From the IMG/VR virus record IMGVR_UViG_3300025769_000616, positions 1 to 28,478 of that record: a stretch of 28,478 bases of DNA. One strand, written 5' to 3'. The stretch comes from a virus. The notes beneath the pieces are model-generated. The model made no database searches. It was not told the origin of the DNA and worked only from the letters and a program-made list of their open reading frames with translations. The position numbers were made by a program, and so were the translations under genes. The first letter of the stretch is position 1. Every line of letters starts with the position of its first letter. Positions 2,658 to 23,205 of the stretch are shown here, piece by piece.

Positions 2658-3006
2658 TAAAAAATACAACATGCCAACAGAATACAGCAAGCGATACAGT
2701 CGAATGTGTGCCCAAGCACGTTTCAGACATGAAGAATGGGCGTTTACGCCAGAGTCTTGGTATAAGGTATGGCAGGACAGCGGAGTGATGGAACACATGG
2801 GAAGGGCACTGCATCAGTACTGCATGACACGTGTGGATGCGACAGAAGCATGGGGTCCGCACAACAGCATAATCATAACAAGACGCATGCATTTTAAAAA
2901 ACACTTTTATGAAACTGTAATGAACTATCCTAAAACAGATTATGATGTTCACAAACACGGTGTGTATGTGCCACCAGAAACACTGGAGAAATATTGTGAA
3001 GTATAA
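2650..3006 (+). CDS. Degenerate HNH-like small protein, 118 aa
   Basis: ATG at 2650 overlaps the methyltransferase stop, with GGAGG-like sequence just upstream. Basic and aromatic. The core 'MGRALHQYCMTRVDA...WGPHNSIIITRR' (residues about 50-80) follows the pattern MG-x-x-DR-x-D-x-x-G-x-Y-x-P-x-N-x-x-W-x-x-R of phage HNH endonucleases. The gene at 4335 has a better copy of the same pattern. Here the first part is short and the usual Cys-Trp after the Asn is lost, so catalytic activity is doubtful. It sits directly before a DNA methyltransferase, overlapping it by 11 bases. It could be a decayed homing endonuclease or a DNA-binding derivative. Confidence 0.5.
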   Translation: MPNKKYNMPTEYSKRYSRMCAQARFRHEEWAFTPESWYKVWQDSGVMEHMGRALHQYCMTRVDATEAWGPHNSIIITRRMHFKKHFYETVMNYPKTDYDVHKHGVYVPPETLEKYCEV

Positions 3007-4345
3007 TATCGTTCAAGGTGACAACAGAGAAACACTAAAAACCCTAGCGGACAACTCAATTGACGCTGTTGTAACGGATCCACCTTATGGTATTGACTTT
3101 CTTGGCAAAGACTGGGACGCAAACACTGGAGCATTGGAAACATATCGTGAATGTTTGCGTGTTCTAAAACCAGGTGGTTATATACTAGCGTTTAGTGCCG
3201 CTCGCACTTACCACCATCTTGCTGTCACACTTGAACAGGCAGGATTTGAAATACGAGATCAACTTATGTGGTTATACGCAAGTGGATTCCCCAAAGCACA
3301 AGACATTGGCAAAGCAATACAAAGACGCCAAGGTGTTGAAGAATATGAAGGATTTGTAGACACAACCAAAAACGCAGGATTTGGACAAACAGATTACGCC
3401 CGTGTTAGAGCAGGCGTTGAGTGGAGCACAAAAGAAACACAGGTTGGCAAAGCAAAATGCACTTCCCCAGAAGCAAAACAATGGGCAGGTTGGAAGACAG
3501 CACTCAAACCCGCACACGAACCCATCTGTATGGCACGCAAACCTTTCAAGGGAAGCACTATAGATAATGTGCTGGAACACGGTGTTGGAGCACTTAACAT
3601 TGATGCTACGAGGATACCACACGAAGTAGAAGGTAGATACCCTTCTAATGTGTTGGGTGAAGTTGAAGGTTATCAGAAGTTCTTCTACTGTCCCAAAGTA
3701 AGTCGCAAAGAAAGACACATAGGGTTCGAAAACCCAATGACAAACGGTGATATGATAAAAGAACTTGGAGCAACTGTTAGTGGTGATGGACAAACGGTAA
3801 GCATTCCGGGTTTATATGATATTAAGATACACGGACTGAAACACGAGTATGAAAAGATTAAGGGCAAGCAGGATCCATTGGCACATATTCCAACTAATCC
3901 AGACGGCATCCCCACAGAACAGAGTATGCTTGATGATATGGGTGGATACTATATTGACATTCAAGGTAACAAACAAGAAATAAGTGGCAAGGATATCTAC
4001 TTACCAGACTACGGATACATCAAAGTTCATAGTCTTAAAGACTATTATGCTAAATGGTGTGAAACAAACAATAAAATTGTAAATGTGGGCAACAACCACC
4101 CCACGGTGAAACCCGTTGCTCTTATGCGTTATTTGATTAAACTTGTGACACCACCTAACTCAACCGTGTTGGATCCTTTCACAGGCAGTGGTAGCACGGG
4201 TATGGCGGCAGTGGAATTAGGACACACTTTCATAGGTTGTGAGTTGGATCCTGCTTATGTTGAAATAGCACGTCGTCGTATTGAAGCGTGGAACACGGAG
4301 GAATACAACAACACATTTAAGGAGTTATTTGAATATGCTGAGTGA
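2996..4345 (+). CDS. Beta-class DNA N6-adenine/N4-cytosine methyltransferase, 449 aa
   Basis: The start is taken as GTG 2996, 7 bases after GGAG (2985-2988); the longer in-frame ATG at 2942 lies inside the upstream gene. Catalytic motif IV is VVTDPPYG (D28-G32). The SAM motif VLDPFTGSGSTG comes near the C-terminus (about 391-402), preceded by NNHPTVKP (about 366-373). Order IV, then target-recognition region, then I, is the beta class. The middle has FYCPKVSRKERH, usual in phage enzymes, then an extra stretch of about 100 residues (roughly 250-360). That stretch holds two similar segments (PGLYDIKIHGLKHEYEK and PDYGYIKVHSLKDYYAK). No restriction gene is seen, so it is probably an orphan enzyme protecting phage DNA. 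Target sequence unknown. Confidence 0.9.
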   Translation: MKYNIVQGDNRETLKTLADNSIDAVVTDPPYGIDFLGKDWDANTGALETYRECLRVLKPGGYILAFSAARTYHHLAVTLEQAGFEIRDQLMWLYASGFPKAQDIGKAIQRRQGVEEYEGFVDTTKNAGFGQTDYARVRAGVEWSTKETQVGKAKCTSPEAKQWAGWKTALKPAHEPICMARKPFKGSTIDNVLEHGVGALNIDATRIPHEVEGRYPSNVLGEVEGYQKFFYCPKVSRKERHIGFENPMTNGDMIKELGATVSGDGQTVSIPGLYDIKIHGLKHEYEKIKGKQDPLAHIPTNPDGIPTEQSMLDDMGGYYIDIQGNKQEISGKDIYLPDYGYIKVHSLKDYYAKWCETNNKIVNVGNNHPTVKPVALMRYLIKLVTPPNSTVLDPFTGSGSTGMAAVELGHTFIGCELDPAYVEIARRRIEAWNTEEYNNTFKELFEYAE

Positions 4346-6308: not shown

Positions 6309-7397
6309 ATGGCCATTACATTAAGACAAGAAAGTGCAACAGGCGCAACGACTAAGTCTGCGTCTTTAAATTTTGCAGAACTCGATAATAACTTTATCGA
6401 TCTATTATCAAACAAAATTCAAGCAATTGACCTAAACGGTGACACAGGACAAACCACACTAGGACAAGCACTGGCAAATGAAAAATTTACAATCGCCGGT
6501 GGAACAGGTATTACAACAGCACTAACATCAGACAGTGCCGGTCAAGCAGTTTTAACAATCAACCAAGATACTGCCGACACAAACACAACTTACACAGTTT
6601 CAGCGGTAGACAGTGGTAGTGATGCTATTATTAGATTAACTGGTTCCGACGCATCAACAGATGATATTACACTAGTAGCAGGTTCAAACATTACACTTAC
6701 ACCAAGTGGTGACAACATTACCATCGCCGCAACTGACACAGGAATCACAGATGTAGTTCAAGACACAACTCCACAATTGGGAGGCAACCTCGATGCACAA
6801 AGTTATAATATTACAAGTTTAGGAACAATTAACACACATACCATTCCTGGTGGTACGGGAACTTTTGCACTAACAAGCGATATTCCCACAGTTATTGATA
6901 CACAGATAGTCGGTGGCACAGATATTACTGTTTCACAACCAGACAGTGCGGGATCGTTTACCGTTGCTTATTCAGGTAGTGCAATTTCAAATGTTGTTGA
7001 AGACACAACTCCACAACTCGGCGGCACACTTGATGGACAAGCAAACACTGTTCAGGATATCAAATTAGAAAACTACAAAGAAACAATTTACGCATTATCA
7101 TATGGTGCTACAATTTCACCAGATGTTGCAAACGGTAACGTTCAAGAAATTACACTAACCGGAAATGTAAACTTTGGTGGATTTACAAATGCGGAAGATG
7201 GACAAAGTTTAACACTTATTATTCATCAGGATGGAACTGGTAGCAGAACATTTACAGAAACTTTAGACAGTGCAAATAGAATGTTATTTGCAGGTGGCAC
7301 AAGCACACTATCCACAGCAGGTGGTAGCACTGACATCATGAGCATCGTGTATGCCGGTGGAATTTACTACGCATCACTAAGCACGAACTTTAGTTAA
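6309..7397 (+). CDS. Tail fibre-like protein with repeated DTTPQLGG modules, 362 aa
   Basis: An AGGAG site precedes ATG 6309. The N-terminus MAITLRQESATGATTKSASL resembles the virion-attachment end of fibre proteins in marine phages, followed by FAELDNNF. The body is low-complexity Thr/Ser/Gly beta sequence. Two copies of DTTPQLGG-x-LD (near residues 155 and 238) are a module common in marine phage fibres. Two DSAG tetrapeptides occur. The C-terminal third (ENYKETIYALSYGATISPDV, then LTLIIHQDGTGSRTF) resembles a beta-sandwich tip domain. It is first in a run of adhesion-type genes. Likely a trimeric side or tail fibre; the receptor cannot be deduced. Confidence 0.75.
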   Translation: MAITLRQESATGATTKSASLNFAELDNNFIDLLSNKIQAIDLNGDTGQTTLGQALANEKFTIAGGTGITTALTSDSAGQAVLTINQDTADTNTTYTVSAVDSGSDAIIRLTGSDASTDDITLVAGSNITLTPSGDNITIAATDTGITDVVQDTTPQLGGNLDAQSYNITSLGTINTHTIPGGTGTFALTSDIPTVIDTQIVGGTDITVSQPDSAGSFTVAYSGSAISNVVEDTTPQLGGTLDGQANTVQDIKLENYKETIYALSYGATISPDVANGNVQEITLTGNVNFGGFTNAEDGQSLTLIIHQDGTGSRTFTETLDSANRMLFAGGTSTLSTAGGSTDIMSIVYAGGIYYASLSTNFS

Positions 7398-18342: not shown

Positions 18343-18795
18343 ATGGCAACACTAGCAACTATAAGTGATCTACAAGATTACGAACCCGATATTCTAGATT
18401 TTGGAATTCCCAATTTTGACGAAGAATTAAGCAAGGCACAAGCGGATGTCTTTAGACAATTACGCAGAGATTGGTGGCCTACTCAAGTCTTGGGTTTGTA
18501 TGATTTAAAATACCTGGCAACCGGACAAACGGAACCAGATGAAGACTTATACACTGCAAGTCAACTCACAAGAGCAACAGTATTCCGCGCTCTAGGTTAT
18601 CACATATTCCCAAAGATGGCAAAATTTGAAGCAGAACCCGACATGTTTGAACGTAAAATGGAATTTTACAGAAAAGAATATGCTGAAGAATGGGATAACA
18701 TTTTAAGAGACGGTGTGGAATATGATTTGGACAGCAGTGGCACAGTAAGCGACGAAGAGAAAACTCCAACTCACTATCTACGCCTTAAAAGGTAG
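18343..18795 (+). CDS. Head-tail connector protein with EF-hand-like loop, 150 aa
   Basis: AAGGAG lies upstream of ATG 18343. It is mostly helical (NFDEELSKAQADVFRQLRRD, then WWPTQVLG), with LTRATVFRALGYHIFPKMAK as in gp6/gp16-type connector proteins of siphoviruses. Residues about 128-139 read DLDSSGTVSDEE, a full canonical 12-residue EF-hand loop with acidic or Ser ligands at positions 1, 3, 5, 9 and 12. Calcium binding there is plausible. It is the first gene after the capsid and precedes the tail terminator. Confidence 0.75.
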   Translation: MATLATISDLQDYEPDILDFGIPNFDEELSKAQADVFRQLRRDWWPTQVLGLYDLKYLATGQTEPDEDLYTASQLTRATVFRALGYHIFPKMAKFEAEPDMFERKMEFYRKEYAEEWDNILRDGVEYDLDSSGTVSDEEKTPTHYLRLKR

Positions 18796-19522: not shown

Positions 19523-19933
19523 ATGGCGACATATACAGGCGAGAACGGAACCGTTAAAATCGGAACCGACAGTGCAGGTGAAACTGCGATTGCTGAAGTT
19601 CGCTCTTGGACGGTTGAACACAGCAAAGATGTGATCGACGATACGGTCATGGGCGACTCTGCGAGGACTTTTAAATCTGGATTACACCAGTTTACAGGTT
19701 CTATGGAAGTAGTATACGATGATGGACACACAGCGGCAAGCGATGCGTTCCGTCCAGATAATGATGGCGATCTTTACATCGAATTTTATCCAAGCACAAG
19801 TGCAGGTGAAAAATTCACAGGTAAAGTTATTGTTACATCAGTATCAAGAAGTGCATCATACGATGATCTCGTAACTGCAAGTGTAAACTTCCAAGGCACT
19901 GGTGCATTAGACGTTCAAGCATACAACGCTTAA
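19523..19933 (+). CDS. Major tail tube protein, 136 aa
   Basis: GGAG lies just before ATG 19523. It reads MATYTGENGTVKIGTDSAGE, then VRSWTVEHSKDVIDDTVMGD, which matches tube proteins of siphoviruses ('W-x-x-x-x-x-x-x-x-x-x-T-x-MG'). Next come TFKSGLHQFTGSMEVVYD and YIEFYPSTSAGEKFTGKVIV, and a final strand (VTASVNFQGTGAL). Predicted mainly beta. One DSAG occurs. It polymerises around the tape measure protein. Confidence 0.85.
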   Translation: MATYTGENGTVKIGTDSAGETAIAEVRSWTVEHSKDVIDDTVMGDSARTFKSGLHQFTGSMEVVYDDGHTAASDAFRPDNDGDLYIEFYPSTSAGEKFTGKVIVTSVSRSASYDDLVTASVNFQGTGALDVQAYNA

Positions 19934-19942
19934 GGATTTCTA

Positions 19943-20236
19943 ATGTTAAGAATTAGTGTCAGAGGCACTAAACGAGTTGGCCGCGATCTTGAAAGAGAAA
20001 AAGATCGATTGGTTGACAGAGTAGCACAAGATACATTGGTAGTAGCAAAAAGCAAAACGCCAATAGACAAGGGACAAGCGAGACGTGGTTGGCACCTCGA
20101 AAACGCTTTCAAAGAAAAGCGTATAGTCAACCGCGTGTCCCACATTGTTCCTTTAGAAATGGGCCGCTCAAAACAAGCACCGAATGGTATTTTGGGACCT
20201 ACCATACGGGAGATATCAAGAAGGAGATATAAATGA
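19943..20236 (+). CDS. Tail completion protein, HK97 gp10-like, 97 aa
   Basis: A weak GGA site precedes ATG 19943. A helix-rich basic N-terminus (GRDLEREKDRLVDRVAQDTL) is followed by VVAKSKTPIDKGQARRGWHL, the 'TPIDTG-x-x-R-x-xW' signature of HK97 gp10-like proteins. VSHIVPLEMGRSKQAPNGIL matches their 'Y-x-x-x-xE-x-G' end. The protein is shorter than many family members. It usually sits at the head-tail joint or tail completion step, but here it lies after the tube gene. The stop overlaps the next start (ATGA). Confidence 0.75.
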   Translation: MLRISVRGTKRVGRDLEREKDRLVDRVAQDTLVVAKSKTPIDKGQARRGWHLENAFKEKRIVNRVSHIVPLEMGRSKQAPNGILGPTIREISRRRYK

Positions 20237-20574
20237 GTAATGTAATTAACAACATACAAGCACACTTTAAAGAAAAGTTAAGTGGTGGACTGCAAAAGAT
20301 TTCTGTACCAGAATGGAAAACAGATATCTATTATAAAGCGGCATATTCGTTTGCTGTAGAAAGCAAAATTATTGCACTACAACAACAGGGTAAAACCGTT
20401 GAAGCATTAGTCGAAAGTCTAATTGCCAAAGCATTGGATCCGGAAGGAAAACCCATGTTTACAAAATTTGACAAAACAACACTAATGAACGATGCGGATC
20501 CAGCAACCCTTTTGCGTGTGTGCAGTGAGTTAAACAACGCTGTTTCAGAATATGAGGAAGTGGCAAAAAACTAA
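20233..20574 (+). CDS. Tail assembly chaperone, G-like, 113 aa
   Basis: AAGGAG precedes ATG 20233. Helical sequence with YYKAAYSFAVESKIIALQQQ, then GKTVEALVESLIAKALDPEG, then KFDKTTLMNDADPATLLRVC and a final helix (LNNAVSEYEEVAKN). Proteins of this size just before the tape measure gene act as tail chaperones that coat the tape measure during assembly (lambda gpG-type). The last codons form the slippery site for the -1 frameshift that yields the longer G-T product. Confidence 0.8.
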   Translation: MSNVINNIQAHFKEKLSGGLQKISVPEWKTDIYYKAAYSFAVESKIIALQQQGKTVEALVESLIAKALDPEGKPMFTKFDKTTLMNDADPATLLRVCSELNNAVSEYEEVAKN

Positions 20575-20762
20575 AAGAGGACACTGAACTTCAACTGTTA
20601 ATGAGAATAGCAGAGACTTTGCACAAGAGTGTGGAGGAAGTTATGCAGTTAAGTGTCCTGGAAATAAAGTTGTGGTATGAATGGTTTCTACTACAACATG
20701 AAAGACAAAAGGAGGCGATGAGTCGTGGCAACACAAACACTAGAAATCCGCGTTCTCGATAA
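20233..20762 (+). CDS. Tail assembly chaperone G-T fusion by -1 frameshift, about 176 aa
   Basis: The heptamer A AAA AAC (20565-20571) is in frame X XXY YYZ with the G reading and directly precedes the stop TAA (20572-20574). Slipping back one base opens a 63-codon reading (from CTA 20571) to TAA 20760-20762. It starts LKEDTELQLLMRIAETLHKS and includes VEEVMQLSVLEIKLWYEWFL, typical of the T half of G/GT proteins ('ms-x-x-El-x-W-x-x-f'). A purine-rich GAGGAAG lies a few bases before the slip site and could act as an SD-type stimulator. The T reading has no usable start of its own and runs into the tape measure gene, as in lambda. Confidence 0.9.
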
Positions 20763-23205
20763 GACGCAACGTGCCCTAAGTAATATTAATAAACGCCTAA
20801 CGGGTTTAAATCAAGGACTTTTAGGTGTTAATCGTATTGCAGGTCTTGCGGCAACTGCATTAGGTGCTATTGGCGGTGCAAATGTTATTAAAAACATTGT
20901 TACTACTACAGCACGTTTTCAGGACTTAAGAACTACTCTTGCTAGTGTTACTGGCGGCGCACGTCAAGGTGCAGAAGCATTTGATTTTGTTTCACAATTT
21001 GCTACTAAAACACAATTTGGTGTAGAAGAACTAACACAAACTTTTATTAAGTTAAAAGCAAGTGGTATTGCTCCTACAGAAGAATTACTTACACTATTTA
21101 CAGACGCCGCGGCGGTTACAACAGATCAACTGGGATCACTACAAGCAATCACAGATTTGTTTAGTAGAACAACAGCGGGTGGTTTAGGACTTGAAGAACT
21201 AAACAGACTTGCTGATAGAGGTATTCCCGTATTTGATATTCTACAAGAAAAATTAGGTAGAAACAGATTACAGTTAAGTGATCTAGGTAAGACTGCCGAA
21301 GGTGCTAATCTTATCTTATCAGCGTTAAGTGAAGGTATCAAAGAGCGTTTTGGTGGTGCTACTGAAAACAGAATTAATAACATAAGCACACAGTTTTCAA
21401 ACTTACAAATTGCCATTACAAATGCGGCAGATAAAATTGGTAGTCAAGGTTTTGCTAAAGCACTTGGACAAACCGCTGTAAAGATTACAGAATACATTGA
21501 AAACAATGAAGAACTTGTAAGATCAATTGGTATCAATTTAACCAAAGCATTCTTATATGCTGTTGAAGGTGGCAAATTAGTAATTGCTAATATAGGACTT
21601 ATTGGTAAAGCATTTTTAGCATTCTTTGGTTTAAAGATTGCTATTGGTGTTGGTGCAATAGCGGCGGCATTTGGTAGCACATTAGTCAAAGGTTTAAGTC
21701 TAGCGGCAAGGGCAGTTAAAGCACTTACACTAGCGGCCGCGGCAAATCCACTTATTGCGGCAGGACTTGTTATTGCGGCAGGTGTTGAATATCTAACAGG
21801 TGCATTTTCAAAACTAGCAGAATCAATGAACTTGGGCGGGGTTGCAGATGATGCACTTGATGCACTAGAAAAAGGTTGGGACAACGTTGCTGAAACAATT
21901 GGTGTTAACCTAGAAGGCATTGAAGAATTTAAAAAGGGCATTGCTGATATTGATGAAAGAGCAAAAGCACTAGCACCTAATTTTGATGATATAAATGACA
22001 CAACAGGTAAAATTAATGTTAACACAGGTAATACAAATCAAAATTTTAAAGATCAAGCAGATAAACTTTCACAGATTACAAAAACATTTAAAGAAATATT
22101 AACAGATACTACAAAAGATTTAGAATTATCTAAAATTAAATTAGAAGATAATAAAGTAATTCAAGAACTTAAAAAAGCAGAACTTGAATTGGGTAGAGCA
22201 TTAACTAAAGAAGAAGAAAAACAATTAAGTTCCTTAATTCAACAAAAACAACTAAATGAATTATTATTACAAATTAAAGAAAAGAATGCCGATAGAGAAA
22301 AAGAAATTACGCAAGGTGGTATTGACCTAGCACAAAAATATTATGGTATTCTAACAACTTTTGAAGTTGATTTTTATAAAAGACGTGAAGAAACTGCCAA
22401 AAGTTTTGCAAAGTTTGAATATGAACAAGGAGTTATATCTAAACAGGCATTAGCACAAGCAATTTTAGATATTGAAACAGAAACACAAAATAAAATTAAT
22501 GAAATTAGAGCAAGTGCCATTGAAGAAAGATTAGCAAACGAAATTCAACGCGAAAAAGAAGCAGGTAAACTTATACTTGCAGGTAGATTAAGTGCAGAAG
22601 ATAAAGCAGTGTTACAACAACAAGGTAATGCCGAAAGAGCAAAACAAATTGCATCAGATAGAATTGAATTTGAAAAGAAATCAGAAGCAGAAAAAGTAGA
22701 ATTTGGATTAAGCAAAGGTGCTGAATTCTTTAAAGGATTAAGTGCCTACAATAAAAAGTTTTTTGCGGCATACAAAGCGTTTGCAATAGCACAAGCAATT
22801 ATTAACACATATCAAGGTGCCACAAAAGCACTTGCTACATATCCACCACCGTTTAACTTTATTGCGGCGGCGGCAACTGTTGCTAGTGGTTTGGCGCAGG
22901 TTGCTACTATTAGAGCACAAACAGCACAACGAGGTGGTAACCTAATTACCAATCAACCCGCTGTAATCGGGGAAGATGGAGCGGAAATTATCGTTCCCAA
23001 ACAACCATCAACGGTTATACCTAGAGAAGTAGCACAGGCAATTGAAGGCATGGGAGGCAGACGAGAACCCGTCCAAGTTGTGTTTAACATACAAGCAAAT
23101 GATACAAGCGGGTTTGATCAATTATTAACACAGCGTAGAGGATTGATTGTTAATCTAATTAACACAGCACTCAATGAACGCGGGAAAGCGGGGATTACAT
23201 CGTAA
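20725..23205 (+). CDS. Tape measure protein, 826 aa
   Basis: GTG 20725 is the start: GGAGG (20711-20715) lies 9 bases upstream and it overlaps the T extension. The N-terminus (LDKTQRALSNINKRLTGLNQ) and AARFQD-like helices are followed by the conserved TMP block (FQDLRTTLASVTGGARQGAE, then GVEELTQTFIKLKASGIAPT, then RTTAGGLGLEELNRLADRGI). Hydrophobic segments lie near residues 300-355. A very AT-rich Lys/Glu coiled-coil region spans about 440-670. A C-terminal block QPAVIGEDGAEIIVPKQ is typical. At the usual 1.5 angstrom per residue the tail would be about 120 nm. Confidence 0.9.
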   Translation: MATQTLEIRVLDKTQRALSNINKRLTGLNQGLLGVNRIAGLAATALGAIGGANVIKNIVTTTARFQDLRTTLASVTGGARQGAEAFDFVSQFATKTQFGVEELTQTFIKLKASGIAPTEELLTLFTDAAAVTTDQLGSLQAITDLFSRTTAGGLGLEELNRLADRGIPVFDILQEKLGRNRLQLSDLGKTAEGANLILSALSEGIKERFGGATENRINNISTQFSNLQIAITNAADKIGSQGFAKALGQTAVKITEYIENNEELVRSIGINLTKAFLYAVEGGKLVIANIGLIGKAFLAFFGLKIAIGVGAIAAAFGSTLVKGLSLAARAVKALTLAAAANPLIAAGLVIAAGVEYLTGAFSKLAESMNLGGVADDALDALEKGWDNVAETIGVNLEGIEEFKKGIADIDERAKALAPNFDDINDTTGKINVNTGNTNQNFKDQADKLSQITKTFKEILTDTTKDLELSKIKLEDNKVIQELKKAELELGRALTKEEEKQLSSLIQQKQLNELLLQIKEKNADREKEITQGGIDLAQKYYGILTTFEVDFYKRREETAKSFAKFEYEQGVISKQALAQAILDIETETQNKINEIRASAIEERLANEIQREKEAGKLILAGRLSAEDKAVLQQQGNAERAKQIASDRIEFEKKSEAEKVEFGLSKGAEFFKGLSAYNKKFFAAYKAFAIAQAIINTYQGATKALATYPPPFNFIAAAATVASGLAQVATIRAQTAQRGGNLITNQPAVIGEDGAEIIVPKQPSTVIPREVAQAIEGMGGRREPVQVVFNIQANDTSGFDQLLTQRRGLIVNLINTALNERGKAGITS

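Follow-up and report, generated by a model that had tools for sequence, protein, structure and literature searches.

A candidate −1 frameshift signal with a conserved long-range RNA stem at the end of a tail chaperone gene in uncultured aquatic phages

How might a reading frame be translated that opens in the −1 register at the end of the tail gene G of the virus record IMGVR_UViG_3300025769_000616? The window analysed here is the whole of this record, 28,478 bases in length, and coordinates are those of the window. An initial annotation had read the site as a programmed −1 frameshift generating a G-T tail chaperone of the lambda kind. Frameshifting between G and T is widely conserved, and is among the most widespread of recoding events. 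From a comparison of related loci we consider it very likely that this is a −1 programmed ribosomal frameshift site giving a G-T fusion, with a GAGG sequence behind and an RNA stem ahead that hold the ribosome. The elements are listed below, with lengths in nucleotides (nt) where given.

20233–20574, + strand: G, open reading frame of the tail assembly chaperone, 113 amino acids in the 0 frame, ending GCA AAA AAC TAA
20554–20557, + strand: GAGG, putative Shine-Dalgarno (SD)-like element 7 nt 5′ of the heptamer, from codon bias and anti-SD pairing
20565–20571, + strand: candidate slippery heptamer A_AAA_AAC, read in phase and conserved in relatives
20572–20577, + strand: 6-nt spacer, opening with the G stop codon TAA (20572–20574), its length kept in TCCTAG and TCGTAG variants
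20578–20588, + strand: 5′ arm of the predicted long-range RNA stem, AGGACACTGAA, from folding, covariation, codon constraint and a synonymous null
20649–20659, + strand: 3′ arm of the same stem, TTAAGTGTCCT, on the same basis
20571–20762, + strand: T, predicted −1 frame extension of 63 sense codons plus the stop codon TAA (20760–20762)

Conservation of the heptamer and the T frame

The heptamer stands directly before the stop codon of G, and the −1 frame remains open for 63 codons into the tape measure gene, both as initially annotated. An X_XXY_YYZ heptamer at the end of G combined with an open −1 frame is the lambda-type pattern. We examined its conservation in loci collected by homologue searches with the window G and three relatives. 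These gave 257 loci, with contigs recurring between searches; the window and phage DSL-LC06 (L082, OR003941) bring the set to 259 sequences. The G protein of DSL-LC06 is 66% identical to that of the window, and those of the group of pelagiphage HTVC202P about 33%. No prophage or host relatives were found in the genome contig search. The analysis used the 234 sequences that have A_AAA_AAC, an open −1 frame and full context. The heptamer is present in four further loci with too short a sequence, and in L260, L303 and L290–L292, which were excluded by length or stop filters. Eight sequences stop at or too near the junction (L064, L069, L167, L177, L253, L284, L299 and L300), three of them still ending in the heptamer. 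A_AAA_AAC is absent from L285–L289 (A_AAG GAA) and L296–L298 (G_GGA_AAC). The 234 loci comprise 97 distinct 230-nt sequences, reduced to 80 by thinning below 97% identity. The first 55 of these 80 were used for codon-use, pairing and helix-scan counts, and a G-gene tree was built from 79 sequences, leaving out L294.

All 55 non-redundant sequences have AAA and AAC as the heptamer codons, against a background in G genes of 72% of lysine and 35% of asparagine codons. Of the 234 loci, 183 have the 0-frame stop codon immediately behind the heptamer and 51 have it one codon later (TCC TAG or TCG TAG). The heptamer, the −1 frame and the 6-nt spacing are unchanged in the sequences with a displaced stop. 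That the heptamer persists when the 0-frame stop codon moves shows selection on the slip site as such. Conservation extends to the T peptide, in which L1, D4, A14, E31 and W35 are invariant in 40 sequences. The check proposed at the outset was whether the −1 peptide and the heptamer persist in relatives; both are conserved almost everywhere, the opposite of the outcome that would count against a frameshift. A chance open frame is ruled out by the conservation of the heptamer, its codons and the −1 peptide.

The downstream stem and the upstream GAGG

Structure prediction for the RNA downstream of 20571 had also been proposed, and it reveals a stem that the initial annotation had missed. The stem (20578–20588 paired with 20649–20659) begins 6 nt after the heptamer, has 8–11 base pairs (bp) and encloses some 60 nt in its loop. 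In the predicted fold of the window AGGACACT.AACT is paired with AGTT.AGTGTCCT, with a free energy of −26.9 kcal/mol and z-scores of −2.8 for 109 nt and −3.9 for 94 nt. The closing stem recurs in the folds of seven chosen relatives, with z-scores between −3.7 and −7.7.

The pairing is maintained through sequence change. Across the 55 sequences 94.0% of cells in the 11-pair helix are paired, compared with 31–45% when the arms are slid by one to three columns, and both sides have changed in 16 cells compared with 2.8 on shuffling. On the G-gene tree there are 18 compensatory double changes in the stem and 0–3 in ten slid controls. In a scan of 20,401 possible 7-bp helices in the region, 20578–20584 × 20653–20659 has the highest paired fraction of all (98.7%), and 20582–20588 × 20649–20655 has the most double changes among helices that are at least 75% paired. 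By a G-test with average product correction, 20583-20654 stands sixth and 20584-20653 36th among 24,328 column pairs. The remaining stem pairs rank 1,145 or lower, several of them because they hardly vary, and the top five column pairs lie outside the stem. The individual exchanges include C-G to U-A in three sequences at 20582-20655 (DSL-LC06 among them) and in six at 20584-20653, A-U to G-C in 13 at 20583-20654, C-G to G-C in four at 20584-20653, and U-A to A-U in three at 20585-20652. Leftover mismatches are mainly at the stem ends and at 20586-20651. Over the pairs of 20578–20587 there are 49 G·U-type cells and only three C·A-type cells, indicating that the plus-strand RNA is the strand that pairs.

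Both arms are coding, and we compared duplex strength with that of T sequences randomly recoded using the codon usage of these genes. In 64 of 80 sequences the natural stem is stronger than 99% or more of its synonymous versions, and in 76 it is stronger than 95% or more; the fraction for the window is 0.007. Codon use is biased as well. At 20655 valine is encoded by GTC in 52 of 54 sequences, although GTC makes up 4% of valine codons, and at 20577 glutamate is encoded by GAG in 51 of 51, against a background of 15%. The synonymous null and the codon bias together rule out that selection on the protein alone produced the stem. The compensation also changes the encoded protein at both arms, for example in L048, where threonine is replaced by valine in one arm and serine by asparagine in the other.

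Other pairings were considered. Twelve 7-bp helices reach at least 75% pairing. The helices 20584–20590 × 20683–20689 and 20585–20591 × 20682–20688 share bases of the 5′ arm, and would therefore compete with the stem. A different partner for the 3′ arm (20555–20561 × 20653–20659) is 80.5% paired but does not covary, and was set aside. No helix of the pseudoknot type, between loop and downstream sequence, reached 75% pairing among the 20,401 7-bp helices. A search of Rfam gave no match.

On the other side of the heptamer, the initial annotation had suggested that an upstream GAGGAAG might stimulate slipping. This sequence (20554–20560) extends just outside the region from 20560 assigned to the signal, and its selection is borne out by codon use, in that glutamate at 20554 is encoded by GAG in 50 of 52 sequences compared with 15% in the background. 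GAGG is present in 58 of the 80 sequences. The mean pairing energy with the anti-SD sequence at the 3′ end of 16S rRNA is about −5.5 kcal/mol at GAGG, and near or above zero further upstream (80 sequences). These data support selection on the GAGG codon, with a putative stimulating role. Comparison of the sequences demonstrates selection on the heptamer, on the GAGG codon and on the stem. What we infer from them is that ribosomes slip, that stem and GAGG enhance the slipping, and that a G:GT ratio is the outcome.

G and its neighbouring genes

The assignment of G as a tail assembly chaperone is supported by its modelled fold. An AlphaFold2 model built from 46 aligned G proteins has a mean predicted local distance difference test score of 86.2. 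Its first- and second-ranked PDB matches are chains of the HK97 tail assembly chaperone 2OB9 (E = 2.2e-4 and 9.9e-4; template modelling scores 0.60–0.65), and several annotated chaperones are among its best viral structure matches. A sequence search of the PDB with G gave nothing relevant. The window G matches phrog_344 ('tail assembly chaperone') with E = 3.2e-4, as do 43 of the 46 aligned G proteins at E ≤ 0.01. The genes on either side are:

19523–19933, + strand: major tail protein gene, upstream of G; phrog_1407, E = 2.7e-18; PF06199, E = 3.4e-6
20725–23205, + strand: tape measure gene with a GTG start at 20725, overlapping the end of T; PF20155 (TMP_3), E = 1.4e-16; phrog_3336, E = 4e-25

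An AGGAGG at 20710–20715 lies ahead of the tape measure GTG. An HK97-gp10-like gene, with a Pfam score just under the cut-off, is also upstream of G. The order of major tail protein, G and tape measure is that of the lambda-type G-GT arrangement. With the phrog_344 match, the 2OB9-like predicted fold and the conservation of heptamer and T, this favors the original reading of the site as a G-T chaperone frameshift.

Some features elsewhere in the window were also noted. It encodes an FkbM-type methyltransferase (1902–2657, + strand; PF05050, E = 1.8e-16) and a DNA methylase (2942–4345, + strand; PF01555, E = 5.1e-33). Eleven copies of the tetrapeptide DSAG are encoded on the + strand, spread over many different open reading frames, and none on the − strand. 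The copies start at 6531, 6942, 10077, 12786, 18007, 19568, 25111, 26110, 27013, 27713 and 28091, and ten of the 11 are encoded as GAY-AGT-GCN-GGN. DSL-LC06 has eight copies, 80 loci from one of the homologue searches average 7.7 per 28.5 kb, and HTVC202P and its relatives have none.

Mechanism, alternatives and known signals

The elements suggest the following sequence of events. As a ribosome nears the end of G, lysine and asparagine tRNAs would occupy AAA AAC in the P and A sites. GAGG behind and the 8–11 bp stem ahead would hold it at the heptamer, the stem beginning at a distance of 12 nt from the first base in the P site (20566). A minority of ribosomes would slip back by one base to AAA AAA and continue through T, while the others stop at TAA as G. 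T would then link the chaperone bound to the tape measure protein with the tail-tube protein, as is thought for lambda. Such slipping by one base at the end of G very probably occurs in these uncultured aquatic phages, and the conserved stem probably sets its frequency.

The stem-loops of dnaX and human immunodeficiency virus (HIV) block binding of the A-site tRNA at 11–12 nt (PMC7282821), and the position of the stem here matches that distance. In Escherichia coli, A_AAA_AAC is described as shifting far less readily than A_AAA_AAG (PMC5009743). Given that it is weakly shift-prone in E. coli, a stimulator is plausible where this heptamer is used.

That weakness is nevertheless one of several observations that weigh against our interpretation. 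The window's own stem has a mismatch, G20586-A20651. Four of the 80 sequences fail the synonymous null at 5% (L050, L276, L280 and L294). The alignment check on T gave weak sequence matches to known T domains; the window T has its best match with phrog_16513 (E = 0.027), with none at E ≤ 0.01 and no Pfam match, and among 40 T peptides 12, the window T not included, have a phrog_337 ('tail protein') match with E ≤ 0.01. Nor is the stem universal. L294 and L295 have the heptamer and no clear stem (recoding fractions 0.07–0.08), and in the HTVC202P group an equivalent stem was not found despite the heptamer, which takes the form A9C in 78 of 79 loci read. The scan of that group covered 49 sequences; the 79th locus, L085, was read at the wrong place and retained, and L110 and L112 yielded none. 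A hairpin AACTTTT / GGAAGTT does occur in the group (L083 at about 18610–18650, relatives L084–L163), 86% paired and with 18 double-change cells. It lies at alignment columns 77–96 after the start of the heptamer, and was rejected as an equivalent of the stem because it is too far away.

Other lineages vary the parts further. L285–L289, with A_AAG GAA before the stop codon, have a stem of different sequence in the equivalent place; for L285 and L286/L287 none of the 500 recodings reaches it, and L288/L289 have fractions of 0.022–0.034. In L290–L292, which keep A_AAA_AAC, the 0-frame stop lies several codons further on, and in L290/L291 the 3′ arm lies further downstream (fractions 0.026–0.028). 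L296–L298, with G_GGA_AAC, have no clear stem, the fraction of 0.27 for L296 being unconvincing.

These lineages bear on the alternatives. A stem can be conserved within coding RNA for other purposes, and a real frameshift might be accompanied by a stem that serves mRNA stability or the pacing of translation without stimulating slipping. Retention of the heptamer without a stem in the HTVC202P group would fit this. We think it improbable, because the 6-nt spacing is kept even in the TCCTAG and TCGTAG clades and gives the geometry of known stimulators, and because L285–L289 have a stem of another sequence at the equivalent place beside a different shift site. Polymerase slippage on the A run, in place of ribosomal slippage, seems very unlikely indeed. 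A run of nine A is long enough for it to be considered in the HTVC202P-like group, but the window has only six, and a downstream stem with an SD-like element are ribosomal stimulators; a covarying stem at 6 nt would be of no evident use in polymerase slippage.

According to the initial annotation T lacks its own start, yet an in-frame ATG is present at 20601, 26 nt past the G stop codon, from which T might be made as an independent small protein by re-initiation or internal initiation after termination of G. The ATG is present in only 21 of the 55 relatives, however, and 13 of the 55 have no ATG, GTG or TTG within the first 20 T codons. The segment LKEDTELQ, which precedes 20601, is among the best conserved parts of T, and an independent start would leave the invariant heptamer unexplained. 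Since the candidate start codons are not conserved, an independent start for T was rejected, and the initial claim is right in part, though it overstates the lack of a start codon; independent synthesis of T has a minimal probability in our view.

A −1 ribosomal frameshift held by GAGG and the stem can be compared with known systems. The lambda G-GT and HK97-type chaperones are alike in gene position, in a small chaperone extended at its end in the −1 frame, in a canonical heptamer and in the 2OB9-like fold; the present site differs from lambda G-GT in coupling A_AAA_AAC to a conserved stem and an SD-like element. The signal of E. coli dnaX, and of the IS3 family, also has an upstream SD-like sequence, an A-rich heptamer and a stem 5–6 nt downstream. 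The SD sequence of dnaX is about 10 nt upstream of the heptamer, whereas GAGG is 7 nt upstream here. Moreover, the heptamer is A_AAA_AAC in 55 of 55 relatives and not the A_AAA_AAG of dnaX, the stem has a loop of some 60 nt and two coding arms, and the frameshift product is the longer one. The linker of dnaX is AGUGA and its hairpin has 10 bp (PMC7282821). The g-t genes of the haloarchaeal virus HCTV-2 have A_AAA_AAC in the same type of gene; its host is archaeal, and the available part of the cited description mentions no stem (PMC5009743).

DSL-LC06, of the proposed 'Nanhuiviridae', shares the heptamer, the spacing and the stem with two compensated pairs. Its public record has G and the tape measure gene annotated and nothing between, so that T (L082 20331–20520) is missing, and a term search found no 'frameshift' in the main text of the paper describing this phage and family. 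T of DSL-LC06 should be annotated as part of a joined gene.

According to a major review, certain tailed-phage frameshifts seem to need no stimulators (PMC5009743), and two chaperone frameshifts have measured efficiencies of 6 and 7% (PMC3711429). In the available texts of literature including PMC5009743, PMC10885494, PMC3711429, PMC7618472, PMC7282821 and PMC10611076 we found neither a conserved stem nor an SD-like stimulator reported for a tail chaperone frameshift, most subscription papers and supplementary files being outside the search. The novelty of the site lies in the covarying stem together with the conserved SD-like element.

We tentatively suggest, as one possible history, that a phage lineage evolved a dnaX-like three-part signal in its tail chaperone gene, with an SD-like pull behind, the bacterially weak A_AAA_AAC, and a covarying stem ahead. 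Its relatives might keep the G:GT ratio by swapping parts, using A9C without a stem in the HTVC202P group, A_AAG with a stem in L285–L289 and G_GGA_AAC without a detectable stem in L296–L298, and the stem may also steer the protein sequence. The stem, backed by covariation, points to a stimulator having been added to the chaperone frameshift in at least one widespread aquatic lineage. Related sites with and without it would provide a natural series on the trade-off between shift site, SD element and stem that holds the ratio of the two proteins.
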